This document shows, in pieces, positions 29,726 to 45,851 of a stretch of DNA of 64,000 nt. Source of the stretch: Arthrobacter yangruifuii (GTDB lineage Bacteria > Actinomycetota > Actinomycetes > Actinomycetales > Micrococcaceae); assembly GCF_009192775.1 (NCBI RefSeq), contig NZ_VTFX01000003.1, positions 62,001 through 126,000 on the forward strand, read 5' to 3'. Under the pieces are notes generated by a model. The model was given only the letters and a program-made list of their open reading frames with translations. It searched no databases and was not told the DNA's origin. Made by a program: the position numbers and the translations under genes. Each line of letters begins with the position of its first letter. The first letter of the stretch is position 1.

Positions 29726-30066
29726 GCTCTAACCCACTCTCGATGTGTCTGGCAGGTAGAGGAGTCGCCCTCGACCGCCGATTGACGACTCATAAACTGT
29801 CGCCTCTATTCTATGAACTGGATCACATCTTGCCTAACTGGAGAGTCATGGTCAACCTTAGTGTCGACACAGTGGCGTGAAACGTGCTCGCTGGGTGGGC
29901 ACGGGCCGCCGTTGTGGGGAGGGTTCCGCGGCGTGGCACCCCCAAGGTGACGTGCCGGGCGTTTAGCGTGGGTGCAGGCGTACAGACAGACTTCCCTTGC
30001 GGCAGGGCCGCTGCAGAAACGACGTGCCGGCTTTGCCCGCAACGGTGTGAGACAGGAATGAAATTC
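29726..30066. other. Divergent regulatory region of the island
   Basis: About 340 bases between the ferredoxin reductase (minus) and the GntR regulator (plus). It holds one perfect TGTCGACA operator-like site at 29861-29870. An open frame continues upstream of the regulator through this region but without family similarity, so I do not count it as coding. Nothing else recognisable was seen. Confidence 0.5.
29861..29870. promoter_or_regulatory. GntR operator-like palindrome, site 1
   Basis: GTGTCGACAC, a perfect 10-bp palindrome in the context TTA-GTGTCGACAC-AGT, between the divergent reductase operon and the regulator gene. It is one of a set of related sites in the island's intergenic regions. 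Confidence 0.6.
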
Positions 30067-30780
30067 ATGGAGGACGAAAACGGGAAAGACTTTTCCGTTC
30101 AGCTGATGACCCGGATGCTTCGGTTGGAGGATCGGGCCGACTCTCTCGTCGCGAAGATCGCCCTGGATGTCGGAACCCGCATCATCGAGGGCGCCCTGGC
30201 TCCGGGCAGCGACGTCAATTCAGTGGAGCTCTCGGAGCGGTTCGGCACCAGCCGCACGCCGGTCCGGGAGGCCCTGCTGCTCCTTGAGAAACAGGGCCTG
30301 GTGGAGATTCCTGCCAGGCGCAGGCCGACGGTGGTGGACCTGTCCCGCACGCCGGTGAAGGACATCTATGATGTCCGGTCCCTGCTCAGCGGCAACATCG
30401 CGGAGCTGGTGTGCGAGCGGCGGACGGCAAAGGATCTGGCCAAGATGAAGGAGGGACTCGAACGCATGCGGCAGGCGTGCGAATCCGGCGATGTCCAGGC
30501 CTACTTCTGGGCCAATGTCAGCTACAACGACACCGTCACCTCGGTGGCGCGTAATCCGGTGCTGTCTGAGCTGATCGATTCCCTGGGCCTGCGGGTCCTG
30601 CAGCTGCGCCGCCGATCAATGTCCCCGCCGTTGCGCATGGAGCGCTCCCTGGCTGATCACGACCGGCTTTTCCAGGCCTACAAGGTCAGGGACGGGGACC
30701 TCGCAAGGGCCCTGTCCGGAGCCATTATCCGCGACGCCTACCGCGCGCTTTCCGGCGGCATGGGTGCCCACGGGGAATAG
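30067..30780 (+). CDS. GntR-family (FCD) transcriptional regulator of the island
   Basis: 237 residues from the ATG at 30067, which has AGGA nine bases upstream; an in-frame ATG at 30058 has no room for a ribosome site. The N-terminal winged helix reads SVELSERFGTSRTPVREALLLLEKQGLVE, and the rest is an FCD effector domain (DIYDVRSLLSGNIAELVCE; a DHDRLFQAYKVRDGDLARAL helix). FCD members usually repress catabolic genes and release on binding a carboxylated inducer. The recurrent TGTCGACA sites in this island are the likely targets, by location. Confidence 0.88.
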   Translation: MEDENGKDFSVQLMTRMLRLEDRADSLVAKIALDVGTRIIEGALAPGSDVNSVELSERFGTSRTPVREALLLLEKQGLVEIPARRRPTVVDLSRTPVKDIYDVRSLLSGNIAELVCERRTAKDLAKMKEGLERMRQACESGDVQAYFWANVSYNDTVTSVARNPVLSELIDSLGLRVLQLRRRSMSPPLRMERSLADHDRLFQAYKVRDGDLARALSGAIIRDAYRALSGGMGAHGE

Positions 30781-30816
30781 CTGCACGACCGGCGGGATAA
30801 GCGTGGAATGAACTGC

Positions 30817-30855
30817 GCCCGGCGTTCGGAGGGGATGCCTCTCCGAACGCCGGGC
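30817..30855. terminator. Strong hairpin between convergent genes
   Basis: GCCCGGCGTTCGGAG (30817-30831) pairs perfectly with CTCCGAACGCCGGGC (30841-30855) over a 9-base loop. It lies between the regulator gene and the CoA-transferase gene, which face each other. There is no T-run, so it may terminate in both directions without one. Confidence 0.75.
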
Positions 30856-30875
30856 ATTGGTCCGCTGCTACGGGA

Positions 30876-32153
30876 TCAATGCGCCGATGCGGGCACCTTG
30901 TGCTTAGCGTCCGCCGGAACCGGGGCCGGGGGGCGTACCACCCCGCTGGCCACCAGCGCGGCGATGTCTGTCTCGGCCAGCCCCAGAACGGACTGCAGGA
31001 TGGCCGGTCCGTCCTGTCCCAGGGCAGGCGGGAAACTGTTGCGGCCCTCCGGGAGTGTGGCCATTTTGATGGGATTGCCCACCGTCCGCACGGTGGTTCC
31101 CTCGCCGTCGGACAGCTCGATGACCATGTTGCGGGCGGCTACCTGGGGGCTGTTAAGGGCGGAGGCCACGTCGTTGACGGTACCCACCGGGATGGCTGCC
31201 TCGTTGAACAACTCGACCCATTCGTCGGCCGTATGCTGCAGGAACGCCGGCTCAATGATGGACCACAGTGCCTCCTTGTTGCGCAGCCGGTCTGCGTTGC
31301 GGGCGAAACGCGGATCCTCGATGAGCTCAGGGCACCCGAGGGCCCGGGCCATCGCCTGCCACATGCGCTCGGTGTTCGCGGTGGTGACGATGGCGCGGCC
31401 GTCCCCTGCCTGGAACATGCGGTAGGTCGGGATTGAATCGTGGCCGCTGCCCTGGGGGCCGGGGACCTGGCCGGACTCCAGGTAGTACGTCGCCTGGTAG
31501 TCGACCATCGACACCAGGCAGTCAAGCATGGAGATGTCGATGTAGTCCCCGACCCCTTCCCGGGTCCGCCGGTTCAATGCTGCGAGGATGCCGATCACTG
31601 CATGGAGGCCTGCGGCGAGGTCGCCGATCGGCAGGCCTGTCCGGACAGGATCGCCTCCACGCTCGCCGGTAAGGCTCATGGTGCCGGAGAGGGCCTGGAC
31701 AATCATGTCGTAGGCGGTCAGGTCCCGCAGGGGGCCGGTCTGGCCGAAGCCGCTGATCGAGGCCCAGATCAGCTCCGGCCGGCGCTCCATCTCAACTTCG
31801 CGGTCAACCCCGAGCCGCGCGAGGACTCCGGGACGGAAGTTCTCCACCACGATGTCGCACTGATCCATGAGCGAACGGATCAGTTCCGGTGCGCTTTCGT
31901 GTTTGAGGTCCACGACGATGGACTTCTTATTCCGGTTGATGGTGTGGAAATATGCGCTGTCTCCGCGGATGAAGTGCGGCGGGACGGTACGGCTCAGGTC
32001 CCCGGCCGGTGATTCGACCTTAATGATCTCTGCACCCATATCGCCCAACATCTGCACTCCGTAGGGCCCGGAGAGGAACTGGGTGAAATCCAGAACCCGG
32101 ATACCGGCCAGGGGGCCAGGCGGTCGTGCTGCGGACTGTTGTGCTGATGCCAT
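30876..32153 (-). CDS. Family III CoA-transferase (CaiB/BaiF)
   Basis: 425 residues from the ATG at 32151-32153, with AGGAG upstream; the open frame beyond that is not real. Domain order is canonical: GIRVLDFTQFLSGPYGVQMLGDMGAEIIKVE near residues 17-47, SISGFGQTGP, and DISMLDCLVSM carrying the catalytic Asp. It would move CoA from a donor such as succinyl-CoA to a carboxylic acid intermediate, activating it for further breakdown. It reads away from the SDR/P450 operon and shares its divergent region with two operator-like sites. Confidence 0.92.
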   Translation of the reverse strand: MASAQQSAARPPGPLAGIRVLDFTQFLSGPYGVQMLGDMGAEIIKVESPAGDLSRTVPPHFIRGDSAYFHTINRNKKSIVVDLKHESAPELIRSLMDQCDIVVENFRPGVLARLGVDREVEMERRPELIWASISGFGQTGPLRDLTAYDMIVQALSGTMSLTGERGGDPVRTGLPIGDLAAGLHAVIGILAALNRRTREGVGDYIDISMLDCLVSMVDYQATYYLESGQVPGPQGSGHDSIPTYRMFQAGDGRAIVTTANTERMWQAMARALGCPELIEDPRFARNADRLRNKEALWSIIEPAFLQHTADEWVELFNEAAIPVGTVNDVASALNSPQVAARNMVIELSDGEGTTVRTVGNPIKMATLPEGRNSFPPALGQDGPAILQSVLGLAETDIAALVASGVVRPPAPVPADAKHKVPASAH

Positions 32154-32250
32154 GGAAGGCTCCTGCTCTTTATATGTGACGCCGGTGCAGTTGCCTGCAC
32201 GGGGATCTTCAGTGATTTCTTGACCCTCAAAGTACCCGGAAGTCGCCGTT

Positions 32251-32260
32251 ATGTCGACAC
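32251..32260. promoter_or_regulatory. GntR operator-like site 2
   Basis: ATGTCGACAC (context GTT-ATGTCGACAC-TTGAC), core TGTCGACA perfect palindrome at 32252-32259, in the divergent region between the CoA-transferase and the SDR/P450 operon. Confidence 0.6.
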
Positions 32261-32312
32261 TTGACGTGATCCACGTCTCATAGTTAGGGTTCAAACCGAA
32301 CATGTGCCGAAA

Positions 32313-32322
32313 ACGTCGACAC
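32313..32322. promoter_or_regulatory. GntR operator-like site 3
   Basis: ACGTCGACAC (context AAA-ACGTCGACAC-TTTTC), 62 bases from site 2 and 24 bases before the SDR start, so it could block the downstream operon's promoter or its transcription start. Confidence 0.58.
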
Positions 32323-32345
32323 TTTTCGAGTGAGAGGACAGGACT

Positions 32346-33098
32346 ATGCGCCTGAAGGATGAAGTGGCAGTGATCACTGGTGCGGGCTCGGGAATGGGCC
32401 AGGCAGGTGCGATCCGATTCGCCCAGGAAGGTGCCGCCGTCGTGGTGGTTGACCTGAACGGCGAAGCCGCCGAGAAGACTGCCCAGGACATTCGGAACAA
32501 CGGCGGCCGGGCCATTGCCGTTGCCGCCGACATCTCCGGACTCGAGGGCAATGAGAAGGCCGTCAACGCCGCCCTCGAAGAGTTCGGCAAGCTGTCCATC
32601 GTATGGGCCAACGCCGGCCTGGCGACCAAGGTCCAGCCCCTTGCCGACGCCGATGAGGCAGTATTCCGCCGCATGCAGGACGTCAATGTCTACGGTCCGT
32701 GGAACATGGCCCGCGCTGCCATGCCGCATCTGGCCAAGGAGAAGGGATCCATGCTGATCACCGCCTCCCTGTCCGGCCTGACTGCACGCCCGGGCAACTC
32801 CGCGTACTCCGCCACCAAGGGCGCCGCCGTGCAGCTCACCCGCGCACTGGCCATCGAGTTCGCCCCGGATGTGCGCGTCAACTCCATCTGCCCGGTCGCC
32901 ACGCAGACGCCCATGCAGGACGTGTTCACCCCCGGCGGCCTGAAGGATGAGATCCAGCCGAAGATCATCGCCGGTATCCCCATGCAGCGCCTGGCCGTCC
33001 CCGAAGACATGGCCAATGCTGCGCTCTTCCTCGTGTCCCGCGAAGCCGGCATGATCACTGGCCACAACCTCCCCGTTGACGGAGGCTCCCTTTGCTGA
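32346..33098 (+). CDS. Short-chain dehydrogenase (first gene of P450 operon)
   Basis: 250 residues with a classical SDR layout: TGAGSGMGQAGA near residues 11-22, NAG in WANAGLAT, catalytic Ser in ITASLSGLTARPG, YSATKGA, and a C-terminal LPVDGGS. It begins a plus-strand operon (SDR, ALDH, MmgE/PrpD, amidohydrolase, ferredoxin, SDR, P450, MFS). The next start overlaps its stop. It likely oxidises an alcohol product of the pathway. Confidence 0.9.
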   Translation: MRLKDEVAVITGAGSGMGQAGAIRFAQEGAAVVVVDLNGEAAEKTAQDIRNNGGRAIAVAADISGLEGNEKAVNAALEEFGKLSIVWANAGLATKVQPLADADEAVFRRMQDVNVYGPWNMARAAMPHLAKEKGSMLITASLSGLTARPGNSAYSATKGAAVQLTRALAIEFAPDVRVNSICPVATQTPMQDVFTPGGLKDEIQPKIIAGIPMQRLAVPEDMANAALFLVSREAGMITGHNLPVDGGSLC

Positions 33099-34558
33099 CC
33101 GCTGCCACCACTGATTCCGCTGTCCGGGAGTTCTACGGCTCCTTCATTAACGGCGAGGAGGTCGGCGAATCAGCCGCCTCGACCTTCGAGACCCGCAATC
33201 CGGCCAACGGCCAGGTCCTGACCGTCATCCAGGAAGGCGGCCAAGCCCTCGTCGACCAGGCCGTGGCCAACTCGCGTGCTGCCTTCCCGGCCTGGCGCGA
33301 CCTCCCCGGTGTCGAGAAGGGCAGGATCCTCCTGGCGATCAGCCGCAAGATCCTGGAGAACAAAGACCTGCTGGTCACCCTGGAGAGCCTGGACAACGGC
33401 AAGTCACAGATGGACGCCACCTTCGACGTCATCACCGCGGCACGGTACTTCGAGTACTACGCCGGAATGGCGGACAAGCTGGGCGGGGAAACCATTCCCC
33501 TGCCGGGCACCCACATCTCCTACACGCGTCCCGAGCCGTTCGGCGTCACCGCGCATATCGTTCCCTGGAACGCGGCCTTCCAGCAGGCGGCGCGCGGCGT
33601 GGCCCCGGCCCTGGCCGCCGGCAACACCGCCGTGGTCAAGCCCGCAGAGGACACCTCCATCTCCACCCTCGTCATGGCCCGGCTGGCCCTCGAGGCCGGA
33701 CTGCCGGCCGGCGTGTTCAACGTCGTCACCGGCCTGGGCTCCACCACCGGTGCCGCACTGGTGAGCCACCCGCAGGTTTCCCGCATCACCTTCACCGGAT
33801 CCGTGCCCACGGGCCAGGCCATCATGCGGGCAGCAGCGGAACACCTCAATCCGCTGACCCTGGAACTCGGCGGCAAGGCGCCGAACATCATCTTCGAGGA
33901 TGCCGACCTCAAGGCCGCCATTCCTGGTTCCCTGATGGCCATCAATATCAACGCAGGCCAGGTCTGCGCCGCAGGTTCGCGCCTGCTGGTGCACCGCTCC
34001 CTGCACGATGAAGTGGTTGAAGGCCTCGTTGCCCTGAACCGCCAGGTCAAACTTGGTCCGGCTGCCTCCGGCTCGTCCATGGGCGCCATCACCACGGCCG
34101 CTCAGTACGCCAAGATCCAGGAATACCTGGAGATCGGAAAGGCGGAGGGCGCCCGCGCCGTCATCGGCGGCAGTGCAGCCACCGACGGGGAGCTGGCACA
34201 GGGCCAGTTCATCCAGCCGACCATCTTCACCGGCGTCGACAACTCGATGCGCATTGCACAGGAGGAGATTTTCGGGCCTGTGCTGAGCGTTATCCCCTTC
34301 GATTCCGAAGAGGACGCCGTCCGGATCGCCAACGACACCAAGTACGGACTGACAGCAGGTCTCTGGACCCGCGACCTGGGCCGTGCCCACCGTGTGGCGG
34401 CGCAGATCGAGGCAGGCCAGGTCACCGTCAACGACTTCTTTGCCGGGGGAGTCCAGGCACCGTTCGGCGGGTACAAGAACAGCGGCTTCGGCCGCGAGAA
34501 GGGAACCCACGCCCTGTCCGAGTACCTGCAGACCAAGACCGTCAGCATCAAGCTCTGA
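33092..34558 (+). CDS. NAD(P)-dependent aldehyde dehydrogenase
   Basis: 488 residues from a TTG (GGAGG six bases upstream) that overlaps the preceding stop. Catalytic residues are in place: Glu258 in LTLELGGK and Cys292 in NAGQVCAAGSR; the cofactor turn FTGSVPTG is at 234-241 and VPWNAAF near 157-163. It would convert an aldehyde made by the SDRs or the P450 into a carboxylate, which the CoA-transferase could then activate. The stop overlaps the next start. Confidence 0.93.
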   Translation: MLTAATTDSAVREFYGSFINGEEVGESAASTFETRNPANGQVLTVIQEGGQALVDQAVANSRAAFPAWRDLPGVEKGRILLAISRKILENKDLLVTLESLDNGKSQMDATFDVITAARYFEYYAGMADKLGGETIPLPGTHISYTRPEPFGVTAHIVPWNAAFQQAARGVAPALAAGNTAVVKPAEDTSISTLVMARLALEAGLPAGVFNVVTGLGSTTGAALVSHPQVSRITFTGSVPTGQAIMRAAAEHLNPLTLELGGKAPNIIFEDADLKAAIPGSLMAININAGQVCAAGSRLLVHRSLHDEVVEGLVALNRQVKLGPAASGSSMGAITTAAQYAKIQEYLEIGKAEGARAVIGGSAATDGELAQGQFIQPTIFTGVDNSMRIAQEEIFGPVLSVIPFDSEEDAVRIANDTKYGLTAGLWTRDLGRAHRVAAQIEAGQVTVNDFFAGGVQAPFGGYKNSGFGREKGTHALSEYLQTKTVSIKL

Positions 34559-35961
34559 TGGTCAACGAGCCCACGGCATCCAGTCCCGAAGAGGCCTTCA
34601 TCAAGGCTGTGGAACGGTCCCGCGGCGTCACCGCCGCGGGACTGTCCCGGCGTGCCCGCAGTGTCGGGACGTTGAGCCTTCTCGACTGGCTAGGCTGTGC
34701 TGTCGCCGGAGGCAACACTCCGGAGGCACGGCAGACGTTCCAGGCCCTGGCGCCCGGCGTCGGTGACGCGGCTGTTGCCGGCACCGGGCTGTCGGTCGGA
34801 TGGCGGGATGCCGTGGTGCTCAACGGTGTACAAGGGCATGCCCTTGATTTTGACGACATGCTGCCGGCCATGTCCGGCCATCCGAGTGCCGCGGTCCTGC
34901 CGGCGCTGGTCACCCTCGGAGCGGATCTCGGGGCCACCGTGGAAGACGTCGTTCTGGCGCTGGCTGCCGGCGTCGAATTCGGCGCCTGGGTTGCGCGGTA
35001 CGTCATGCCGGGTCATTACGACGACGGCTGGCACGGTACCGGCACTGTCGGCACGCTGGCCGCCGCGGCCGGCGTGGCCCGCCTGCTGGGCCTCAGCCGG
35101 GACCAGTGGGTTACCGCCCTGGACCTGGCAGCCACGCAGGCCAGCGGACTGCGCGAGTTGTTCGGCACCGCCGGGAAGCCCCTGCACGCGGCCAACGCCG
35201 CCCAGGCGGGAGCCCTGGCGGGACGGATGGCGGCCGCAGGGGCTCACTCGGGGGGGCGGGGAATTCTCGGGCCGAAGGGGTTCATTGCCATTCACGGCGG
35301 CGATCCGGCCTCCGTGCAGGCTCCGGACACCGCGTGGGCTATTGAAGGCATGCTCTACAAGACCTATGCGTCCTGCTTTATGACCCAGGCCTCCGTGGAC
35401 GCAGCCCTGCGGCTGCGGGCTGCGGGCATCACGCCGGAGCAGGTCAAGGCGATCACGCTGACGGTGAGCCCGAAACTCCGGGATGTGTGCGCCATCGCGG
35501 TTCCGCGGACCGGGCTGGACGCCAAGTTCAGCCTGCAAGCCACGACCGCGCTGGCCCTCGGCGGCCATGATATGGCTGCCGAGTCCACGTATCACCCGGA
35601 CAAGCTGACCGGGGGCGCGTACCGGTCCCTGCTCTCCCGCATCACCCTGCAGTACGCGCAGGAGCTGGCGGGCAAGGAGGCAAGCATCGTCCTGGAAGCA
35701 CGGCTGTCCTCCGGACACACGGTGGTTCACCGGGTGGACCGGGGGCGGCCCGTTGAGGACCAGGACGTACTTCGCGGGACCCTCACGGACAAGTTCACGG
35801 CCCTGGTGGGCCCCGTGCTGGGCGAAGGCCGCACCGCCGCACTGGCACAGCTGGCGGGCGACGGCGGCACACCCGCAGCAGTTCTCCTGGCTGCATCGGC
35901 CCCCGCACAAGAAACAGACGACCGGCCTGCAACGGCAGGCATGGCACAAAGGATTGACTGA
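34558..35961 (+). CDS. MmgE/PrpD family protein
   Basis: 467 residues. It has the MmgE/PrpD pattern: TLSLLDWLGCAVAGG near residues 38-52, VLNGVQGHALDFDDM, GVEFGAWVARYV, and a long second domain with LYKTYASCFMTQASVDAAL. Known members are 2-methylcitrate dehydratase and cis-aconitate decarboxylase, so a hydro-lyase or decarboxylase on a small polycarboxylate is plausible. The exact reaction here is open. Its start overlaps the ALDH stop by one base. Confidence 0.88.
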   Translation: MVNEPTASSPEEAFIKAVERSRGVTAAGLSRRARSVGTLSLLDWLGCAVAGGNTPEARQTFQALAPGVGDAAVAGTGLSVGWRDAVVLNGVQGHALDFDDMLPAMSGHPSAAVLPALVTLGADLGATVEDVVLALAAGVEFGAWVARYVMPGHYDDGWHGTGTVGTLAAAAGVARLLGLSRDQWVTALDLAATQASGLRELFGTAGKPLHAANAAQAGALAGRMAAAGAHSGGRGILGPKGFIAIHGGDPASVQAPDTAWAIEGMLYKTYASCFMTQASVDAALRLRAAGITPEQVKAITLTVSPKLRDVCAIAVPRTGLDAKFSLQATTALALGGHDMAAESTYHPDKLTGGAYRSLLSRITLQYAQELAGKEASIVLEARLSSGHTVVHRVDRGRPVEDQDVLRGTLTDKFTALVGPVLGEGRTAALAQLAGDGGTPAAVLLAASAPAQETDDRPATAGMAQRID

Positions 35962-35962
35962 C

Positions 35963-36850
35963 ATGACGACGACTGAACGACTCGCGCTGGATGACGTGGT
36001 GGCCATCGATGTCCACGCCCACGCGCTGAACAGCAGCCACGACCACGGTGATGACGAGACCGGCAACGCCACCAAGGCTGACCAGGCCAAGCGGTGGAAG
36101 ACGGATTTGATCAACATCGATATTGCCGGCACGGCAGAGTACTACCGCAGCCGCCGGATCATGGCGGTCCTGTTCGGCGTGGACTCCGAGCGCCACATGG
36201 GGGACAAGCGCGTCCCGAACTACGAAGTCGCCGAAGCGGCCCGGGAGCACGACGACGTCTTCATCCCCTTCGCCAGCATCGATCCGTACCGCGGCAAGGC
36301 CGGAATTGCCGAAGCCATCGACCTCATGGACAACCACGGGATCCATGGCTTCAAGTTCCATCCGAGCGTGCAGGGCTTCGCGCCGGACGATCCGGTGGCG
36401 TACCGGCTCTACGAGGTCATTGCCGAGCGCGGCAAGGTGGCCCTGTTCCACACCGGCCAGACCGGCATCGGGCGTACCTCGCCCGGTGGCGGCGGAGTCC
36501 GGCTGAAGTACTCCAATCCCATGTATTACGACGACATCGCCGTGGACCTTCCCGATCTGAAGATCATCCTGGCGCACCCATCCTTTCCCTGGCAGGACGA
36601 GGCACTGGCGGTCGCCCGCCACAAGCAGAACGTGTACATCGATCTGTCCGGCTGGTCCCCGAAGTACTTCGACCCCAAGCTCGTCCAGCACGCCAACTCG
36701 CTGATTAAGGACAAGGTGCTTTTCGGCAGCGACTTCCCGCTGCTGACCCCCGACCGGTGGCTGACGGATTTCGCCGAGGCGCCCTTCAAGGACGCGGTGC
36801 GCCCGCTCATCCTCAAGGACAACGCCATCCGTCTCTTCAACCTGTCCTGA
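35963..36850 (+). CDS. Amidohydrolase (metal-dependent, ACMSD-like group)
   Basis: 295 residues from the ATG at 35963 with AAAGGA upstream; the frame open to 35753 is a shadow of the previous gene. It is a TIM-barrel amidohydrolase-2: metal ligands in AIDVHAHAL, GFKFHPSVQGF, HTGQTGIG, ILAHPSFPW and the late FGSDFPLLTPDRW aspartate. Relatives decarboxylate or hydrolyse ring-cleavage-type carboxylates. The substrate is unknown. It lies between MmgE/PrpD and the ferredoxin. Confidence 0.88.
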   Translation: MTTTERLALDDVVAIDVHAHALNSSHDHGDDETGNATKADQAKRWKTDLINIDIAGTAEYYRSRRIMAVLFGVDSERHMGDKRVPNYEVAEAAREHDDVFIPFASIDPYRGKAGIAEAIDLMDNHGIHGFKFHPSVQGFAPDDPVAYRLYEVIAERGKVALFHTGQTGIGRTSPGGGGVRLKYSNPMYYDDIAVDLPDLKIILAHPSFPWQDEALAVARHKQNVYIDLSGWSPKYFDPKLVQHANSLIKDKVLFGSDFPLLTPDRWLTDFAEAPFKDAVRPLILKDNAIRLFNLS

Positions 36851-36880
36851 ACCGCCGCAATTATTGGAAAGGCCACGACC

Positions 36881-37174
36881 ATGAATGACACCGTCACCCA
36901 CGCCGATGCCCCGTTCACGGTGCATCTCTCGCTGTCGGAAAAAACCTATGAGGTGCCTGCGGACAAGGGCATCCTGCAGGTCCTTGAGGAGGCCGGCGAG
37001 CCGGTCATCTCCTCCTGCCGGGAGGGTACCTGCGGGACGTGCGAAACCCCGGTGCTCTCCGGCGAGGTCGACCACCGCGACTCGGTCCTCTCGGACGAGG
37101 AGCGGCAGGCGAACGAAACCATGATGATCTGTGTCTCCCGCTGCCGGGGACCCCGCCTGGAACTGGACATCTAG
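36881..37174 (+). CDS. [2Fe-2S] ferredoxin
   Basis: 97 residues with plant-type cluster ligands Cys46, Cys51, Cys54 and Cys84 in SSCREGTCGTCETPV and MMICVSRC (Cys88 follows). The pattern is like the ferredoxin domain of phthalate-dioxygenase-type reductases rather than the P450cam putidaredoxin. It should carry electrons from the reductase at 28490 to the P450 two genes downstream. It lies 31 bases after the amidohydrolase and 2 before the SDR. Confidence 0.92.
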   Translation: MNDTVTHADAPFTVHLSLSEKTYEVPADKGILQVLEEAGEPVISSCREGTCGTCETPVLSGEVDHRDSVLSDEERQANETMMICVSRCRGPRLELDI

Positions 37175-37176: not shown

Positions 37177-38031
37177 ATGCCCGGCATCAAGGACTTCAGC
37201 GGCAAGGTCACTGTGGTCACCGGCGGCGCCAGCGGGATGGGCCTGGCCATGGCCCGGCGCTTCCTGGCCGACGGCGCAAAGGTGGTCATCGCCGACATTG
37301 AACAGTCCGCGCTGGACACGGCGGTGCGGGACCTGGACCCCACCGGCGAAAGGGTCCTGGGGGTACGGACGGACGTCAGTTCCTCCGAGAGCCTGCAGCA
37401 GCTGGCGGACAAAACCGTCGACGCCTTCGGCGGGGTCGACATCCTGTGCAACAACGCGGGGGTCGAGACGGGCGGTCCGATCGCAGACGTCACCGAACAG
37501 GCCTGGCGGTGGGTCATGGACGTCAACTTCTTCGGAGTGCTCAACGGATGCCGGATCTTCCTGCCGTTGCTGGAACAACGTCCCGAAGCGCACATCGTCA
37601 ACACCGCGTCCGTGGCCGCGTTCGCCACCGGCACCCCGACCATGGCCCCCTACTGCGCCTCCAAGTTTGCCGTCCTGGGCTTCTCCGAATCATTGGAGAT
37701 CGAGCTGCGTTCCCACGGCTCCACCGTGGGGGTCTCCGTCCTGGCGCCGGGGCCGGTGAAAACCAGGATGACCGAGGCGGAGCGGAACAAGCCGGACTCG
37801 GTGAAGGTGTCCACCGACCCCGAGCGCCAAAAGGTCATCGAGAACCTGGCCCGGAAGACCGCCGAGGTCGGAATGGAACCGGCGGACGTTGCCGACATGG
37901 TGGCCGAGTCCATCCGCGACAACCGGTTCTTCATCCTCACCCACCCGGAGATCGCCGTCCAGGGGGTCAGGACCCGGCTTGCCTGGATGGAAACCGGAAC
38001 CCCTCCGGCCCCGCGGACGGCCGGGGCCTGA
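37177..38031 (+). CDS. Short-chain dehydrogenase
   Basis: 284 residues from the ATG at 37177. SDR motifs: TGGASGMGLAMA near residues 16-27, NNAGVETGG, Ser in NTASVAAFATG, YCASKFAVLG and SVLAPGPVKTRM. The longer C-terminus suits a classical SDR with an extra helix. It lies between ferredoxin and P450, so it may act on the P450 hydroxylated product. Confidence 0.9.
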   Translation: MPGIKDFSGKVTVVTGGASGMGLAMARRFLADGAKVVIADIEQSALDTAVRDLDPTGERVLGVRTDVSSSESLQQLADKTVDAFGGVDILCNNAGVETGGPIADVTEQAWRWVMDVNFFGVLNGCRIFLPLLEQRPEAHIVNTASVAAFATGTPTMAPYCASKFAVLGFSESLEIELRSHGSTVGVSVLAPGPVKTRMTEAERNKPDSVKVSTDPERQKVIENLARKTAEVGMEPADVADMVAESIRDNRFFILTHPEIAVQGVRTRLAWMETGTPPAPRTAGA

Positions 38032-38103: not shown

Positions 38104-39318
38104 ATGACTGCACACGTAAGCGATGAGGTCCGGGACGCGCCCGTCTTCGACGGCGATCCCTTCTCCATGGAGGCCCTCAACGACCCGCACCACTACGACG
38201 GCCTGGCCCGCGAACTCGCGCCGGTTGTCTACGTGGAGAAGTACGACTACTACGCCATCACCCGTTTCGCGGAACTGCAGAAGGCCTTGCGGGACTGGCG
38301 CAGGATCGGCTCCGCGGACCGCCCCTTCTACACGCCCAACCCGTTCCGGCCCACCGTCCTGGTGCTTGAGGACCCGCCCACCCATACGATCTCCAAGAAC
38401 GCCGCCATGGCCGTGCTGTCCGGCGACAACCTGAAGAAGTTCGAACCGTACTTCAAGGAGCAGGCCGAAAAGATCATCGACGAGATCCTCGCCGACGGCC
38501 CGGCGGAGATCGACGGCTTCCGCGACCTCTCCGTACGCTACGTCCTGAAGGTCTTCCCCGATGTCCTGGGACTGCCGGAGGAGGGCCGGGAGGCCCTGCT
38601 CGCCTTCGGCGACGGCGTCTTCAACGTCTTCGGACCCGCGAACGACTTCCAGAAGGCCAAGCTGGCCCGTGCGGCTGAGGCACAGGACTGGATCGAGACC
38701 AACACCGACCGCGAGCTGCAGAAGGAAGGCAGCATCGGCGCCGACCTCTACAAGATGGCGGACGAGGAAAAGCTCTCCGGCGAGGTCGCCCAGCAGATCC
38801 TGAAATCCATCTTCTCTGCCGGTTTCGACACCACCACCGCGTCCATGGCCTCGATGCTTCGCGCATTCGCCGACAACCCCGGGGAATGGGAGAAGCTGAA
38901 GGCCAACCCGGACCTCGTGGAGAACGCATGGGAAGAAGCCATCCGCTTCTACCCGGCTTCCCGCTACGGTGGCCGGATCGCGAAGAAGGAGGTTGTGCTG
39001 GGCGGCATCCGCATCCCCGAGGGCGGCAAGATCCTCACCATGTGGCTGGGAGCCGGCCGGGACGGACGCCAGTACCAGGACCCGGACGAGTTCAGGATCG
39101 ACCGGGACATGTCCAACGGCGGCCATCTGTCCTTCGGCTTCGGTATCCACACCTGCGCCGGCAACCTCATTGCCCGCCTCGAGGCGAGGACGCTGCTGCG
39201 CGCAATGCTGGAGCGGATTGAGACGATCGAGCTGGTGGGCGAACCCCGCCGGGCCTTGAACTACCAGGCCTTCGGACACGAGTACGTGCCGATCCGGCTG
39301 ACCCCGAAGAAAAACTGA
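38104..39318 (+). CDS. Cytochrome P450 (island)
   Basis: 404 residues, full length. The I-helix is AGFDTTTAS near 239-247 (acid/Thr pair present), the ExxR is Glu278-Ala-Ile-Arg281, and the haem ligand is Cys351 in FGFGIHTCAG. The N-terminus lacks a membrane anchor, so it is a soluble bacterial class I P450. It is downstream of its own ferredoxin, with the reductase in the divergent operon. It should hydroxylate or O-dealkylate the imported substrate; I lean towards small aromatic or cyclic acids by general resemblance, with low confidence. Confidence 0.93.
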   Translation: MTAHVSDEVRDAPVFDGDPFSMEALNDPHHYDGLARELAPVVYVEKYDYYAITRFAELQKALRDWRRIGSADRPFYTPNPFRPTVLVLEDPPTHTISKNAAMAVLSGDNLKKFEPYFKEQAEKIIDEILADGPAEIDGFRDLSVRYVLKVFPDVLGLPEEGREALLAFGDGVFNVFGPANDFQKAKLARAAEAQDWIETNTDRELQKEGSIGADLYKMADEEKLSGEVAQQILKSIFSAGFDTTTASMASMLRAFADNPGEWEKLKANPDLVENAWEEAIRFYPASRYGGRIAKKEVVLGGIRIPEGGKILTMWLGAGRDGRQYQDPDEFRIDRDMSNGGHLSFGFGIHTCAGNLIARLEARTLLRAMLERIETIELVGEPRRALNYQAFGHEYVPIRLTPKKN

Positions 39319-39337
39319 CCCCGCTAAAGGTCATCGG

Positions 39338-40612
39338 GTGAACACATCCGGGCGTGTCCGCCCCGGACGGGGCGCGGCGGGCGGCCCGGGACAGGGATCC
39401 CGGGCGCCCGCAGGCCCGCCGCTGTGGACGGTGACCTTCACGGCCGCCGTCGTCGTCAACTTCCTGTTGAACCTCGTGTTCTACATGCTGATGACCACGA
39501 CGGCGGTCTATGCCATCGGCAGGTTCGGGGCCGACGGCACCACGGCCGGGCTGGCCGCGTCCATTTTCGTGATGGGCGCCCTGGCGTGCCGCCTGCTCTC
39601 CACAGTCATGCTCGTACGAGTTGGGGCCATGCCGCTGTTCGTCCTCGGGGCCGCGCTCTCATTCCTTTTCTCGCTGCTGTACCTAGCCGCCGAGCCTCTC
39701 TGGGTACTGATGCTGGTTCGGTTCCTTCATGGTGCCGGGTTCGGCCTGGCCCATTCGGCCGTTGGCTCCATCGCCCAGTCTGTCCTGCCGCACGCGCGGC
39801 GCGGGGAAGGCGTGGGCTACTTCGGCACTGCGGCCACCATGGGCACGGCACTGGGACCGTTCGCCGGCCTGTATGCCATTGCCAACGCCGGCTATTCGGC
39901 CCTCTTCCTCGCTGTTGCCACTGTCCTCGCGGCAGCCCTGGCGGGAGGGCTTCTCCTGCGCGTGAAAGCGCATCACCCGGAGGGCACAGCGGCCGACGGG
40001 CGGCAGCCACGGGAGGAGCCGGATCCGACGCCGGCGGCACCGCCGTTGCGCGAGACACTGCGCCGGATTCTGCCGATCGGCCTGATCGCCTTCTTCCAGT
40101 CGATAGCCTATGCCGGCGTCGCAGCTTTCATGGATGTCCATACTGCTGCCCTGGGGCTCGGCGCCCTGGCCGGTTCCTTTTTCCTGGTCTACGCCTCGGC
40201 CGTTATCCTGGTGCGCCTGATGACCGGACGGATCGTCGACCGGCATGGTCCGGCGACAGTCTTCTACCCCTCGGCGGCCTTATACGCCGCGGGCCTTGTC
40301 CTGGTGGCGACCGCGCCGTCGGCGCCTGTCCTCTATCTGGGCGCCGTCCTGCTGGGCATCGGCTACGGCAGCCTCCTTCCCACCGGGCAGACAATCGCCA
40401 TGGGGCTGCTGCCGCGCCGGCAATCCGGCACGGCCTTCGTCTGGTACTTCCTCTTTGTGGACCTCGGGTTTGGCTTCGGTCCGTTTCTCCTCGGTGCCCT
40501 GGTCGAGGGCATCGGAACCACCTCGATGATCCTCATCAGCTGCAGCTTTGTCGCCGTAGCCGGCGTCCTGTTCCGGACCCTCCTGCCGCCATCGGTCCGC
40601 TCCGGTTCCTGA
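39338..40612 (+). CDS. MFS transporter
   Basis: 424 residues from a GTG at 39338, with an Arg/Gly/Pro-rich N-terminal tail before about 12 hydrophobic segments (NFLLNLVFYMLMTTTAVYAIG opens TM1). Signature-like loops GIGYGSLLPTGQTIAMGLLPRRQSG and GRIVDRHGPATVF are typical of MFS. It ends the P450 operon and may import substrate or export an intermediate. The next MFS gene downstream is broken. Confidence 0.88.
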   Translation: MNTSGRVRPGRGAAGGPGQGSRAPAGPPLWTVTFTAAVVVNFLLNLVFYMLMTTTAVYAIGRFGADGTTAGLAASIFVMGALACRLLSTVMLVRVGAMPLFVLGAALSFLFSLLYLAAEPLWVLMLVRFLHGAGFGLAHSAVGSIAQSVLPHARRGEGVGYFGTAATMGTALGPFAGLYAIANAGYSALFLAVATVLAAALAGGLLLRVKAHHPEGTAADGRQPREEPDPTPAAPPLRETLRRILPIGLIAFFQSIAYAGVAAFMDVHTAALGLGALAGSFFLVYASAVILVRLMTGRIVDRHGPATVFYPSAALYAAGLVLVATAPSAPVLYLGAVLLGIGYGSLLPTGQTIAMGLLPRRQSGTAFVWYFLFVDLGFGFGPFLLGALVEGIGTTSMILISCSFVAVAGVLFRTLLPPSVRSGS

Positions 40613-40640
40613 AAAAGAGATTACATAAACCCTCCCTACA

Positions 40641-40657
40641 TCGACACTAAGTGTCGA
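40641..40657. promoter_or_regulatory. GntR operator-like site 4
   Basis: TCGACAC-TAA-GTGTCGA: a 7-bp perfect inverted repeat with a 3-base spacer, containing two TCGACAC half-sites. It sits just before the broken MFS gene and after the P450 operon. Confidence 0.58.
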
Positions 40658-40715
40658 CTCTAATTTCCGGTTCCAGCAGGAATCGGCTGACATTGGAGCC
40701 CACTTGGTTCTGAGG

Positions 40716-42043
40716 TTCTCGCCCCGGGATGTGCAGTTCTTCAACTGCTGTGCTTCTTCGCCTGGGCGGGAGCCGTCTATGACTTCATCCTGTTCGGCAA
40801 TCTGTTGCCCATGATCGCAGGGGACTTCGGGCTCGACGAATCCGGGGCCACGGGCATCAATACCTGGATCACCGCGGGAACAGCCCTGGTGGCTCACTTC
40901 CTGGGCCGCGTTGTTGACCGGGTGGGGCGCCGCAAGGGCCTGATCATCGCGGTGGGGGAGCTGCCGTTGCATCCCTGTTAACGGCCACCACGGGGCTCCT
41001 CTTCGGTCTGTTCGCCGGGCTCGGACTCGTGGCCCTCGTGCTCATGCGGACCGTCGCCGGACTGGACTACGCGGAGATGGCCGTCAACGCCACCTATCTC
41101 TTCGAGGTCTACGCCACTACGGCGGCCACGCCCGCACAATTGCGGCGCCGAGGTCTGACGTACTTGCTGGTGCAGTCCGGCTGGCCCGTAGGTGCGGCGG
41201 TTGCTGCAGGATCGGTGGCCCTGCTGCTCCCGATCGGCGGCTGGGAGCTGTGCTTCGTGGTCGCTGCGTGCCGGCGGTCTTCATCTCCTGGGCTGCGCGG
41301 AAGCTGAAGGAGAGCCCCCAGTTTGCGGCCCGCCAGCAGATTCAAATGCTTCGAAACGCCGGGCGTACCGAGGAGGCCAAGGCCCTGGCCGCCGAGTTCG
41401 GCATCGAGGTCGCAGAAGTTGAGCGGACCTCCGTGATGGAGGTCTTCCGCGGAGAGTCCCTGCGCCCCATGCTGACGATCTGCCCCGCCTACCTTCTGAA
41501 CGGCATGGTGCGCTGGTTTTCCAGATCCTGGCCACGTCGCTGCTGACCTCTGAATCCGGCATGAATATCAACTTCACCAACGCCCTGCTCATCCTGCTGA
41601 TCTCCAACGGCATGGCTTTCCTGGGCTACCTCTTCCACGGGTGGCTGGGTGACCGGATCGGCCGCCGCAACACCATCGCCATGGGCTGGATCATGGCGTC
41701 GGTGTCCTACGGAGCCATGCTGATGCTGCCGCAGGGCAACTTTGGTCCGGTTGTGGCCCTCTACAGCGTGGGCCTGTTCTTCCTCATCGGCCCGTTCTCC
41801 GCCCTGATGTTCTTCACGGGGGAGAGCTTCCCCTCGACAATCCGTGCCACTGCAACCAGCATCATCACGGCCAGCGGAATGGTCGGGAATATCCTTGCCG
41901 GCGTCATCGTCACCACGCTGCTGTCCAGCGGTGAGGCCTGGACCCGCACGGCATTTATTGCCGGGATCGTCCCCACCCTGCTGGGCGGCATGCTGATCTT
42001 CTTCGCACCCCACCGCGATCCCCAGGTGGCCTGCCTGGACTGA
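40716..42043 (+). pseudogene. MFS transporter pseudogene (metabolite:H+ symporter type), at least three frameshifts
   Basis: The residual protein is clear across several frames: FFAWAGAVYDFILFGNLLPMI, GRVVDRVGRRKGL, then after a one-base loss near 40955 GAAVASLLTATTG, FEVYATTAATPAQLRRRGLTYL, after a second shift near 41270 PAVFISWAARKLKESPQF, and after a third near 41510 NALLILLISNGMAFLGYLFHGWLGDRIGRRN to the end. The ESPxF and GRR motifs are those of an importer of organic acids. The start is unclear. An operator-like site remains upstream, so the gene was probably part of the regulon before decay. Confidence 0.85.
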
Positions 42044-42234
42044 CGCGGGGTGCTTCCGGACACAAGCACTGTACGTTCAGCGCCGCTGGCAGAAACCGCC
42101 CCGGCAGCCCTCGGTGCATCCCCTCCAAACCGTTGGGATGTGCCAGGGGCTGCCGGGCTTTTCTGCAGGGGCCTTTTCTATGGAGCAACGCTGCCCGGGA
42201 ATCCTGCGGGGGGGGAGAGGCCAGGTCGCCCGGA

Positions 42235-42279
42235 CACGCCTTGGGCGGGCAGGACACTGTCCTGCCCGCCCAAGGCGTG
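42235..42279. terminator. Perfect 22-bp inverted repeat with 1-base centre
   Basis: The left arm (42235-42256) reads CACGCCTTGGGCGGGCAGGA plus CA, and the right arm (42258-42279) is its exact reverse complement; the only unpaired base is C42257. It lies between the broken MFS gene and dctM, which converge on it. It would form an extreme hairpin in either transcript and probably terminates both. Confidence 0.8.
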
Positions 42280-42302
42280 CAACCGCTCTGAAAGCCGGGT
42301 GG

Positions 42303-43805
42303 TCAGCCCTTCATGCTGGCAGAGTCGACCAGCCATGTCACAAGCTCCGGGAACAGGAACAACATCAGGACTACAAAACCGACGACAGGCAACGCAAAGG
42401 CGCCGGCGATAAAGATATCCGACAGCTTGATCTTCTGACCCTGGTTCACCTCCGGGTCCTGGACCAGCTTGTAGAGGACAAAGCTGAGTACGCCCACGGG
42501 AGGGGTGATGCCGCCCAGTTCCGCCATCAGCACCGTCAGGACGCCGAACCAGAGAAGGTTGATCTCAAGATCCAGCAACGTGGGCATGAGGATGGGGATA
42601 CTCAGCAGCATCATGCTCATGGGCTCGATGAACATGCCCAGGATCAGGAAGACCAGGAGGCACAGCAGGGTGAAGGTGACCGGCCCCAGTTCGGCGTCCT
42701 GCACAACACCGGCGAACCAGTTGGCGATGCCGCTCATGGACATCAACCGGTTGAGCAGCCCGGCTCCGATCAGGACCAGGAAGATCGCGCCTGTGGCCGC
42801 GATAGTGGCGACAACGGACTCCTTGACCGAGGTGATGAAACGCTTCCAGCCCAGGGACAGCAGCGCGATGAGCAACGCACCCAGCACCCCAAAGGCAGCT
42901 CCTTCGGTAGCGGTGAAGAATCCCGCGTACATGCCGCCCATGACGATGAAGATCAGCAGTGGCAGGGGTGCTACGTGCGTGAGCGTCCGCCACCGTTCAT
43001 CCCAGCTCGTCTTGGGGGAGGCATTCGCTCCGCGGGGAACCATGCCCTTAGCAAATACGGCTAGGAGCACGATCATGATGATGCTGACGGCAGCGACCAT
43101 GAGTCCCGGCACGATACCGGCCAGCAACGCCTGGCCCACCGGCGCGTTGACGATTCCCGCGTATACGACCATCAGCAGGCTCGGAGGAATGAGCTGTCCG
43201 GGAAGGCCTGCGGTGATGACGGAGCCGACGGCGAGCCGGCGGTCGTAGCCGGAACGGAGCATCTCCGGAATGCCGATTCGACCCAGCGCATAGGTGATGC
43301 CGATGGTGGATCCGCTGGCGGCGGCCAGCCCTGCTCCCGCGAGGTTGGTGGTAATCGCCTGGCCGCCGGGCAGCCAGCCAAGCCACGCCCGTGCCGCGTT
43401 GAACACCTTGGCCGTCGCGCCGGAGCGCCACAGGATCATGCCAAGGAGAATGAACATCGGCAGCACGCTCATGGACCAACTGGCCGCGGTACCGTACGGA
43501 ACATCCATCAAGGTGCGGATCACCGCACGCTCTCCGCTGATGGCCCACACCCCGAGTATGCCCGAGGCTCCCATGGCTACGGCGATGGGAAACTTCAGGA
43601 TGAGCAGGTCCAGCATCAGGATGATGGCCAGGCTGGCCTTCAGCTCCCGGCCGTCCAGGGTAAAGATCCCGATGACAAGCAGGACCGCCAAGCCCAGGAG
43701 GGCCAGATAAGCACCGCTGGAGATACTCCTGGCCGATCGCTTCGTTTCCCGGCGGCTGCCTGCGGGCCGGGAAACGGAGACGTCGTTAGAAAGCTGGGAG
43801 GTCAC
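42303..43805 (-). CDS. dctM: TRAP transporter large membrane subunit
   Basis: 500 residues from a GTG that overlaps dctQ by 20 bases. It has about 12-13 hydrophobic segments. TRAP-large features include GTAASWSMSVLPMFILLGMI, GSTIGITYALGRIGIPEML, the re-entrant QLIPPSLLMVVYAG and GGITPPVGVLSFVLYKL. It is the ion-coupled channel, driven by sodium or protons. The N-terminal ~30 residues are a charged extension. Confidence 0.93.
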   Translation of the reverse strand: MTSQLSNDVSVSRPAGSRRETKRSARSISSGAYLALLGLAVLLVIGIFTLDGRELKASLAIILMLDLLILKFPIAVAMGASGILGVWAISGERAVIRTLMDVPYGTAASWSMSVLPMFILLGMILWRSGATAKVFNAARAWLGWLPGGQAITTNLAGAGLAAASGSTIGITYALGRIGIPEMLRSGYDRRLAVGSVITAGLPGQLIPPSLLMVVYAGIVNAPVGQALLAGIVPGLMVAAVSIIMIVLLAVFAKGMVPRGANASPKTSWDERWRTLTHVAPLPLLIFIVMGGMYAGFFTATEGAAFGVLGALLIALLSLGWKRFITSVKESVVATIAATGAIFLVLIGAGLLNRLMSMSGIANWFAGVVQDAELGPVTFTLLCLLVFLILGMFIEPMSMMLLSIPILMPTLLDLEINLLWFGVLTVLMAELGGITPPVGVLSFVLYKLVQDPEVNQGQKIKLSDIFIAGAFALPVVGFVVLMLFLFPELVTWLVDSASMKG

Positions 43806-44346
43806 CGTTGTTCACCTCTTCCTGGGTGGTCAGGGTTTCTTTTCCGCGTGCTGCCTGCACCGCGTGCTTGATTTCGGCGATGAGCTGCAACACCAGGACC
43901 GCGATGCCGACCGGCACGATCCAGCGGGTTGGCCAGACCAGGGTGTTTGTGGCGGAGGTGAATTCTCCGACGGCCGTCTGAGCCAGGGCGTTTTCCACCC
44001 CGTACCATCCGATGAGCCCGACAAACACCAGAGTGGCGGTGTTGATGAGCGCGGTCGCGACCGCCCGCATCCTGTGCGGAAGCCGCTCGTGCAGCATCGG
44101 CAGGTCGATATGCTCGCCTCGACGCTGTGTGATTGCCATTGCGCAGAAGACCATTACCGGCATCCACCAGTACGTGACGTACTCGATGGTGCCTTCAATG
44201 GGTGCGTTGGCAAAGAACCGCAGGCAGACGTCCAACACCATGTGGGCCGCCAGCCCGAGCGCCGCAATGCCCGCGAGGACCGTCAGGGCCTGGGTCAACC
44301 GAAGAGTCGTCGTTTCCAACGCTCCCGTTCCCGTACCTTTAGCCAT
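43786..44346 (-). CDS. dctQ: TRAP transporter small membrane subunit
   Basis: 186 residues with four hydrophobic segments. Typical DctQ signs: FFANAPIEGTIEYVTYWWMPVMVFCAMAITQRRGEHIDL, with the conserved RxGxH/HI region, and WPTRWIVPVGIAVLVLQL. It forms the membrane complex with DctM, whose start overlaps its end, and lies 31 bases after dctP. Confidence 0.92.
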   Translation of the reverse strand: MAKGTGTGALETTTLRLTQALTVLAGIAALGLAAHMVLDVCLRFFANAPIEGTIEYVTYWWMPVMVFCAMAITQRRGEHIDLPMLHERLPHRMRAVATALINTATLVFVGLIGWYGVENALAQTAVGEFTSATNTLVWPTRWIVPVGIAVLVLQLIAEIKHAVQAARGKETLTTQEEVNNGDLPAF

Positions 44347-44377
44347 TACCTTGACCTACCTATTCCTCAGGAGAATG

Positions 44378-45634
44378 TCAGGACGTGGGCCGGTACTCGG
44401 CCAGAACCTCTTCGTTCAATGCCTCGATCCACGGCGCGAGGTCGATTTCGGGCAGTTCGGGGTACTTTTGAACCCATTCAGCCTTGGTCTTTACCCCCTG
44501 GTCATACCCTAGGTCTTCGACGATCTTGACCCACTTGGCCTGCAGCGCCGTGAAACGCTCGACCGTTGCCGCCGGGTCCTCGATGCCTTCCGGTGCGTTG
44601 GCCTTCAGATCGGCCAGCACGCTTTCGTGGTGCGTGTCGATCTTCTTCTGCATGGCGGTGTCGGCCTCGTGGAACACGATGCCATCCTTTGCACCTTCAC
44701 TGAAGAACTGGTGCTGCTGCTTGATGTAGCCGCTGAACATTTCCTCCATGAAGGCCGGGATGCCCGCGTTCATGGCGGTCTTCTGGCTTTCGGAGAGGTC
44801 CTCGTAGAACACTCCTCCGGCGTCGACGGAGACGCTGTTCCATCCGGGGAGGTTGACCGAGGTGTAGTTCTTTCCTATGTCGGAGAGACCCAGGCCGAGC
44901 ATGTCCACCTCGCCTCCCATGAAGCAGTCCACGATGCCGCGTTCAAAACCCTCGTAGATTTCGGCGCCGCTCAGTGAAACCGGGACCATGCCGAGATTCT
45001 CCGCTTCAGCAGAGTAGGCGGCTCCGCCGACCCTTACCCGTTTGCCGGCAGCTGCTTCCAAACTGTCCACTGGCTTATTGCAAAGCAGCTGATAATTATC
45101 GAAGTGCTGAAAGCGCGGTATGACCGGATGCAGGCCGAATTCTTCCTGCTCGGCGGCAAGGCCGGGTTCCGTAAGGCCGAATTCGATCATGGCGCCGGCG
45201 GACGCCAGGACACCCACCACCGGACGGGTGTCGCCTCCAATGCCGAGCCGGGAGGCCCAGCCGTCAACGGGGAAGTCTGCGGGAGTAAACGCCGGACCGA
45301 CAAACCCAACATCCATGATTCCGTCGGAAAGTGCAGCTGCGAGTTCGGGCTGTTTGACTACGGAGTCGCCGTAGTTCCACTCGAACTCCATGCTCCCGTT
45401 GGACGCCTCGGTGGTGGCATCACCGAAGGCGACCATGGCTTTGGTGAAGATATGGTCCGGGCCGTAGGGGGCGGAGGCCGCGACGGTGAGCTCCTGCTCG
45501 GGACCACCTGCTGAAGAAGCGGATCCGGAGCCGCCGCAGGCGGCGAGTAAGCCAACGGCGCTGACGCCCGCCACGATAGATAGTGTTCGGTGCCCCTGCT
45601 TACTTGCCGGGCGGATTGCTGTGAAAATTCCCAA
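44378..45634 (-). CDS. dctP: TRAP transporter substrate-binding lipoprotein
   Basis: 418 residues from a TTG at 45632-45634 with GGGAGGAAG five bases upstream; an ATG 39 bases earlier is in frame but has no ribosome site. The lipobox is LLAAC. Residues after it follow the DctP fold: TVAASAPYGPDHIFTKAMVAFG, KPVDSLEAAAGKRVRVGG, the substrate-carboxylate Arg in KRVRVGG, and FEWNYGDSVVKQPELAAAL. It should bind an organic carboxylate, the likely import route for the island's substrate. Operator-like sites lie 135-220 bases upstream. Confidence 0.92.
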   Translation of the reverse strand: MGIFTAIRPASKQGHRTLSIVAGVSAVGLLAACGGSGSASSAGGPEQELTVAASAPYGPDHIFTKAMVAFGDATTEASNGSMEFEWNYGDSVVKQPELAAALSDGIMDVGFVGPAFTPADFPVDGWASRLGIGGDTRPVVGVLASAGAMIEFGLTEPGLAAEQEEFGLHPVIPRFQHFDNYQLLCNKPVDSLEAAAGKRVRVGGAAYSAEAENLGMVPVSLSGAEIYEGFERGIVDCFMGGEVDMLGLGLSDIGKNYTSVNLPGWNSVSVDAGGVFYEDLSESQKTAMNAGIPAFMEEMFSGYIKQQHQFFSEGAKDGIVFHEADTAMQKKIDTHHESVLADLKANAPEGIEDPAATVERFTALQAKWVKIVEDLGYDQGVKTKAEWVQKYPELPEIDLAPWIEALNEEVLAEYRPTS

Positions 45635-45768
45635 TGTCTTCCTCCCTGGGAGTTGGCCGCTGGGGCGGCCCATGGTTTTGGTGTTGTGGCACTGCGGCCG
45701 GCAACCACTTCGTTGTGGAATGCAACGTTTAGGTCCGTAGATGTGATATTTGTCACGAACCTACCATA

Positions 45769-45778
45769 GTGTCGACAG
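45769..45778. promoter_or_regulatory. GntR operator-like site 5
   Basis: GTGTCGACAG (context CATA-GTGTCGACAG-AATG), core TGTCGACA perfect, about 135 bases upstream of the dctP start. Confidence 0.6.
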
Positions 45779-45841
45779 AATGTATCCTAGTTTTCCCAGA
45801 TATGCCGATTTGACGGTTTTCGGCGAGCCAAACCTATAACT

Positions 45842-45851
45842 AAGTCGACAC
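45842..45851. promoter_or_regulatory. GntR operator-like site 6
   Basis: AAGTCGACAC (context ACT-AAGTCGACAC-TCTTG), 73 bases from site 5. Pairs of sites also occur at 32251/32313 (62 bases apart), about six or seven helical turns in each case. Confidence 0.55.

Follow-up and report, generated by a model that had tools for sequence, protein, structure and literature searches.

What controls the catabolic gene island in a 64,000-nucleotide stretch of the Arthrobacter yangruifuii genome (contig NZ_VTFX01000003.1, positions 62,001 to 126,000; the window hereafter, with its own numbering)? A preliminary description proposed that the FCD-type GntR protein encoded at 30067 acts through six related palindromic sites between the genes. 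Our analysis supports this assignment, as sites of the same kind stand beside related GntR genes in three other records, and the protein very probably controls the island through short palindromic, mostly paired sites. In the four regulator-bearing records examined, the sites are mostly paired, with centers separated by 62-64 or 73-75 bp, which corresponds to six or seven helical turns. We think it likely that the protein is a local, autoregulated, VanR-like FCD repressor that would act via two phased operators, perhaps with a short loop.

All six sites are present where the preliminary description had placed them, and they share the 9-mer AGTGTCGAC on one strand. The longer context TAGTGTCGACACT, which it had taken to be common to them, is incomplete in some and was rejected as the shared word. 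Nor do the sites occupy every major intergenic region, as had been claimed; four gaps carry them, and those at 27281-27563 and 42044-42302 are without any of the six. The window holds seven copies of the 9-mer where 0.47 would be expected, and none of 100 shuffles holds as many; the seventh copy, at 22950, is contained in a thioesterase open reading frame (ORF) and was assigned no role. Simpler words are not clearly enriched in the window, neither the hexamer GTCGAC (32 against 23.8 expected, with 6 of 100 shuffles reaching 32) nor TGTCGACA with at most one mismatch (29 against 22.5 expected, 15 of 100 shuffles), and both were rejected as the defining motif.

Across the 3.54-Mb genome, AGTGTCGAC is rare and not globally enriched, with 14 copies against 30 for a reversed-pattern control. 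Six of the 14 are the island sites, two further copies are intergenic, on contig C4 (eight intergenic in all), and six lie inside predicted ORFs. The ORFs around the copies were called by a simple rule of length and third-codon-position G+C, which picks an over-long coenzyme A (CoA)-transferase ORF covering 32250 and 32312; both are counted as intergenic because 32153 is the most likely start of this gene. The 16-kb island, which was picked because of the motif, would be expected to hold 0.06 copies (binomial probability ~3e-11). A degenerate 12-mer with up to two mismatches shows no genome-wide enrichment (216 against 568 for the reversed control) and was rejected as a motif. As the degenerate forms are not enriched genome-wide, the evidence for the sites is their clustering and cross-genome conservation, not their global frequency. 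They fall into the operator class with GT and AC 2 or 3 nt apart, GT-CG-AC being found in 18 of 20 compiled sites and GT-CG-CC in two, a result that is partly by construction, since related patterns had been used to find the sites and the weak or overlapping ones at 29796, 40637 and 11860 of the C4 stretch L017 (C4:460000-479999) were excluded from the 20.

The regulator has the domains of a GntR/FCD (FadR/VanR) protein, with Pfam scores of 45.8 bits for GntR (cut-off 27) and 94 bits for FCD (cut-off 24.3). Its relatives are found in Microbacterium sp. 67-17 (locus L025; 63% identical over the alignment), on a plasmid of Rhodococcus koreensis R85 (L027; 44%) and in a genome of the same order, G993 (L033; 42%). 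TSRTPVREAL in the DNA-binding domain is invariant in all four aligned proteins. In the FCD domain, the L033 and L027 proteins carry FH, which we take to be part of a metal motif, and the window and Microbacterium proteins carry YN in its place, so that the metal site may have been altered or lost. The gene is rare among the searched genomes, few candidates having been scored in each. At threshold, only the own genome contained a relative among 295 genomes of the family, 394 of the class and 386 of the order; a search of family f4 gave one of 398, G993, and within the genus of G993 only that genome itself did so among 11. These searches scored at most seven to nine candidates per genome, except that within the genus of G993, and absence is not proven by them. 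A scan of genome contigs gave two loci, the weaker of which (L026, Cytobacillus, 32%) served as a control only, and the best 1 of 1836 plasmid records matching the GntR protein, that of R. koreensis, was examined for sites.

Beside these related genes, the sites adjoin their own CoA-transferase, short-chain dehydrogenase/reductase (SDR), cyclase or transporter genes. In Microbacterium, TGTGTCGACTTA (8191) and AGTGTCGACAGC (8254) lie 63 bp apart in the SDR/CoA-transferase gap, that is, between the same genes as the window pair 32250/32312 and with near-equal spacing (63 against 62 bp). On the Rhodococcus plasmid, two pairs flank the GntR gene: AGTGTCGCCACT (14780) and AGAGTCGACACT (14843), 63 bp apart, between it and the CoA-transferase gene, and GGAGTCGACACT (15695) and ACTGTCGACTGT (15757), 62 bp apart, between it and a major facilitator superfamily (MFS) gene. 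G993 likewise has two pairs, both of 63 bp: AGTGTCGACACG (12074) and ATTGTCGACACT (12137) before the cyclase and GntR genes, and TGTGTCGACACT (17455) and AGTGTCGACACA (17518) between the thiolase/CoA-transferase and MFS genes. Two sites an integral number of helical turns apart thus stand at most targets on the four records, the exceptions being 40637 and the single sites.

Spacing was tested against first-order Markov resamples of 169 kb of sequence, namely, the five site-bearing loci (window, L017, L025, L027 and L033 with L034). At 10 or more of 12 matches, there are five pairs within 200 bp, at 62, 63, 63, 63 and 75 bp; the 100 resamples average 0.05 such pairs, with a maximum of one. At 9 or more matches, six of 15 such pairs are at 62-64 bp, where the resample mean is again 0.05 (maximum one); resampled pairs at all distances up to 200 bp average 3.96 (maximum nine). 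The Microbacterium pair 8191/8254 enters neither count, because 8191 matches at only eight positions of 12. In 11 control loci (178 kb), 10 pairs were found at 9 or more matches, none at 62-64 or 73-75 bp and one at 72 bp. Six plasmid loci with other regulators (L028-L031, L060 and L061) have no pair at these spacings. Among them, the Mycobacterium branderi plasmid locus (L030) has a similar annotated gene set (CoA-transferase, thiolase, aldehyde dehydrogenase, P450, SDR, amidohydrolase and cyclase) with an IclR gene instead of a GntR gene; it has no pair at the characteristic spacings and one of 72 bp at 9 of 12 matches. In the own genome, the exact pattern TGTCGACN{55,57}GTCGAC matches at a single place, within the island. 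The Microbacterium genome holds one match in the regulon and five outside it, G993 two in the regulon and four outside it (one repeat region accounts for three of these), and the Rhodococcus plasmid one, at a place other than the regulon. Nine of 29 same-genus genomes match the pattern, the own included, and those of the others look, by eye and among the matches listed, GC-rich and mostly coding-like.

Taken together, we propose that GntR dimers would bind 12-bp palindromes AGTGTCGACACT, one half of which is kept nearly perfect, with two operators at most targets, six turns (62-64 bp) or sometimes seven (73-75 bp) apart, facing the same side of the helix. The near site lies ~20-55 bp before the start codon of the SDR gene in the window and Microbacterium, the cyclase gene of G993, the CoA-transferase gene of the Rhodococcus plasmid and the MFS genes of both of the latter records, and the second site lies about six turns further upstream; therefore, the promoter would lie, and be held, between or under the two operators. 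In G993, a TTGACA stands between the sites at 12074 and 12137. Joint occupation might be cooperative or take the form of a short loop made by a dimer of dimers. The CoA-transferase gene, the operon for SDR, aldehyde dehydrogenase, ferredoxin and P450, the ferredoxin reductase gene, the tripartite ATP-independent periplasmic (TRAP) transporter genes, gntR itself and perhaps the C4 P450 cluster would be repressed until an acid or a CoA-linked pathway intermediate binds the FCD domain.

The C4 locus may be a distant member of this putative regulon. L017 carries AGTGTCGCCACT (6406) and, 75 bp on, CTTGTCGACACT (6481). On one side of this pair is an MFS gene; on the other stand genes encoding an SDR, a serine beta-lactamase-like hydrolase and a P450 with fused reductase and ferredoxin domains. 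A further site, AGTGTCGACACC at 11800, lies between an HtaA-domain gene and a flavin-dependent (FAD) monooxygenase-like gene, which is followed by glyoxalase-fold, fumarylacetoacetate (FAA) hydrolase and IclR genes. The region L017:4740-16449 has a G+C content of 0.595 against ~0.665 in its flanks and looks acquired. A plasmid of Streptomyces fungicidicus carries homologues of its SDR and P450 together (71 and 73% identical), as do Rhodococcus plasmids (48-53%). Both plasmid stretches that were fetched (L060 and L061) have TetR genes near the C4-type SDR/P450 cluster, and neither contains AGTGTCGAC. The Rhodococcus qingshengii plasmid pLP337 carries both a C4-type cluster and a P450 57% identical to that of the island, a hint that the island and the C4 cluster act in the same pathway.

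Several observations weigh against the proposed repressor with phased operators. At C4, the locus has an IclR regulator of its own (L017:15526-16449), which may control it instead, a second shared word, AGTGCCGCTTT, lies near both sites and is absent from the window, and the partner of the site at 11800, at a distance of 63 bp, is weak. The near site is more distant from some window genes than the range above, by 96 bases for CoA-transferase, 94 for TRAP, 70 for the ferredoxin reductase and ~190 for GntR. A sigma-70 scan of 28000-46400 gave two promoter-like sites against 2.2 in shuffles, no excess. The sample consists of four records and some ten pairs, some of which are kin by descent (the SDR/CoA-transferase gap of the window and Microbacterium). 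Pair members can be weak, the 64-bp window partner 29796 matching at 9 of 12 and Microbacterium 8191 at only 8; 40637-40661 is an overlapping double site of 13 bp, off the pair pattern. Microbacterium also has a single, unpaired TGTGTCGACACT at 4568 and has no AGTGTCGA-type word directly upstream of its GntR gene. Support for helical phasing is modest: a Rayleigh test for a 10.5-bp repeat, which omits the 13-bp pair and the weak pair at L017 11800, gives p ~0.0007 for nine distances and 0.01 for six chosen as more independent, and an 11-bp repeat fits these six equally well.

The main rival explanation, which we regard as unlikely though worth weighing, is that GntR binds the sites and the members of a pair act separately on two divergent promoters, the spacing being a conserved geometry of back-to-back promoters. 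Divergent gaps do contain several of the pairs (window 29.8, 32.25 and 45.8 kb; L025; L027 14780; L033 17455; L017 6406), and separate sites are found in 71 of the 100 FadR-type divergons that include a regulator gene, in the portion of the survey seen (Suvorova et al. 2015, PMC4494728). This explanation is weakened by pairs of 62-63 bp that precede tandem genes, namely, L033 12074/12137 (Peptidase M1 then cyclase, both on the plus strand) and L027 15695/15757 (GntR then MFS, both plus), and a near-constant distance is the very mark by which that survey, as far as seen, recognizes cooperative pairs (PMC4494728). It is improbable that the sites belong to another regulator, such as the IclR protein beside the C4 cluster, with GntR a bystander. 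In its favor, two intergenic sites out of the eight belong to C4, with an IclR gene close by, but sites of this kind go with GntR relatives on four records (tracking was assessed for GntR only), and the gap before the GntR gene itself holds a site. Moreover, palindromes of the GT-N2-AC form are already described for FCD-GntR proteins (PMC4494728), and the predicted operator of PrpR has the core TGTCGACA (PMC9765439), as given in the parts of these sources seen. It is very improbable that the sites cluster by chance or only because restriction-like hexamers abound in GC-rich DNA. GTCGAC is indeed common here and degenerate forms lack genome-wide enrichment, but the 9-mer occurs seven times against 0.47 in the window and fixed-spacing pairs recur on other records, which contradicts this explanation.

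Beyond the island, the preferred reading of a repressor acting via two phased operators may extend to a regulon-wide rule, which we offer tentatively and consider rather doubtful. Most targets of a small FCD-GntR clade would carry two operators six or seven turns apart on either side of the promoter, with one tetramer clamping a ~63-bp loop, and the rule would travel with the regulator across genera, having captured different catabolic genes, including an unlinked P450 cluster.

Features of the window discussed in the text, the regulator and putative operators first
Feature	Position	Strand	Remarks
FCD-type GntR regulator	30067..30780	+	ATG at 30067, in-frame ATG at 30058 possible; Pfam GntR 4.9e-12, FCD 1.2e-26
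Putative operator ACTGTCGCCTCT, weak upstream partner	29796..29807	+	9/12 matches; 64 bp from 29860
Putative operator AGTGTCGACACA	29860..29871	+	Between ferredoxin reductase (-) and GntR (+)
Putative operator AGTGTCGACATA (- strand), pair member	32250..32261	-	Divergent CoA-transferase/SDR gap; same gap in L025 has a 63-bp pair
Putative operator AGTGTCGACGTT (- strand)	32312..32323	-	62 bp from 32250; 22 bases before SDR start codon
Two overlapping sites sharing the 17-bp palindrome TCGACACTAAGTGTCGA	40637..40661	+	13 bp apart; precede probably broken MFS gene
Putative operator AGTGTCGACAGA	45768..45779	+	Upstream of TRAP operon (-)
Putative operator AGTGTCGACTTA (- strand)	45841..45852	-	73 bp from 45768
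Ferredoxin reductase, putative target	28490..29725	-	
Family III CoA-transferase, putative target	30876..32153	-	Start at 32153 inferred
SDR, first gene of putative target operon	32346..33098	+	
Aldehyde dehydrogenase	33092..34558	+	
MmgE/PrpD family protein	34558..35961	+	
Amidohydrolase-2 family protein	35963..36850	+	Start inferred; listed ORF begins 35753
[2Fe-2S] ferredoxin	36881..37174	+	Fer2 1.6e-14; between amidohydrolase and second SDR
Second SDR	37177..38031	+	Start inferred; listed ORF begins 37039
P450	38104..39318	+	Closest solved relatives by sequence are CYP199 enzymes
MFS transporter	39338..40612	+	
Probably broken MFS gene	40690..42043	+	Short ORFs in differing frames
TRAP transporter DctM, DctQ, DctP	42303..45673	-	

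In the probably broken MFS gene, only the last ORF, 41561-42043, matches MFS in Pfam, and the two others searched match nothing; the Microbacterium stretch from the CoA-transferase to the GntR gene also resembles transporter-gene remnants by eye. The palindrome at 40641, which precedes the broken gene, scores as a terminator-like hairpin and was rejected as a terminator, as its tail has no T run.

The gene content points to what the regulator may sense. CYP199 enzymes act on para-substituted aromatic acids. The ferredoxin and the ferredoxin reductase would complete a three-part system with the P450, and the island also encodes a lactonase-like metallohydrolase. We infer that the substrate is an aromatic or similar carboxylic acid and that the ligand is an acid or a CoA ester. 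The island appears to encode a degradation pathway that is inducible and includes a CYP199-like P450, and its regulator and operators, with a defined operator and spacing, form a pair that is directly testable. The pairs on the several records would be natural replicates of phased double operators, in which cooperative repression by FCD-GntR proteins could act over a very short distance.

How does this arrangement compare with known systems? The window GntR is not a PrpR orthologue by gene context, as no methylcitrate operon was found among the island proteins scanned; nearest to methylcitrate genes is the distant MmgE/PrpD protein, at ~25 bits with PrpD models against cut-offs of 575 and 950. 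Among the PDB relatives of the window GntR is 6z74, which we take to be Atu1419. In the part of the Pseudomonas aeruginosa study available to us, PrpR (PA0797) is an FCD-GntR repressor of the methylcitrate operon with the predicted operator ATTGTCGACAAT, and it binds its own upstream region in an electrophoretic mobility shift assay (PMC9765439). Like the window protein, PrpR has a winged helix-turn-helix and an FCD domain and a 12-bp palindrome with the core TGTCGACA, but the outer bases differ (here AG..CT), other genes are controlled, and the portion seen describes one operator for PrpR where we find pairs (PMC9765439).

Literature searches on GntR paired operators at 63 bp gave none with this arrangement in its title or the start of its abstract, among the matches listed. 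Those on GTGTCGACAC gave nothing apparently related, again among the matches listed, and those on CYP199 with GntR and CoA-transferase gave none on this pathway, both by titles and abstract starts. The double sites of FadR-subfamily divergons come closest, as the survey reads their near-constant distance as cooperative and their operators are of the same GT-N2-AC class; in the part of the survey seen, such sites are found only in divergons with the regulator gene (29 of 100, FadR subfamily), whereas here they also occur upstream of genes in tandem and in gaps that lack the regulator gene (Suvorova et al. 2015, PMC4494728). Atu1419 of Agrobacterium fabrum is a VanR-type, tetrameric FCD-GntR regulator of hydroxycinnamic-acid catabolism whose tetramer, according to the sections of that report consulted, loops two palindromes 190 bp apart, the loop being visible by electron microscopy (PMC7797058). 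It shares with our regulator the FCD-GntR type and two palindromes per region, those of ours being putative operators, and differs in its operator, ATGTATACAT, and in spacings of 190 bp (the loop) and 109 bp (one site degenerate) rather than a constant 63. If one exists here, a loop of ~63 bp would be well below these 109 and 190 bp (PMC7797058). The operator core and the FCD-GntR type are thus already known, and it is the unusually regular spacing of the pairs that sets this system apart.

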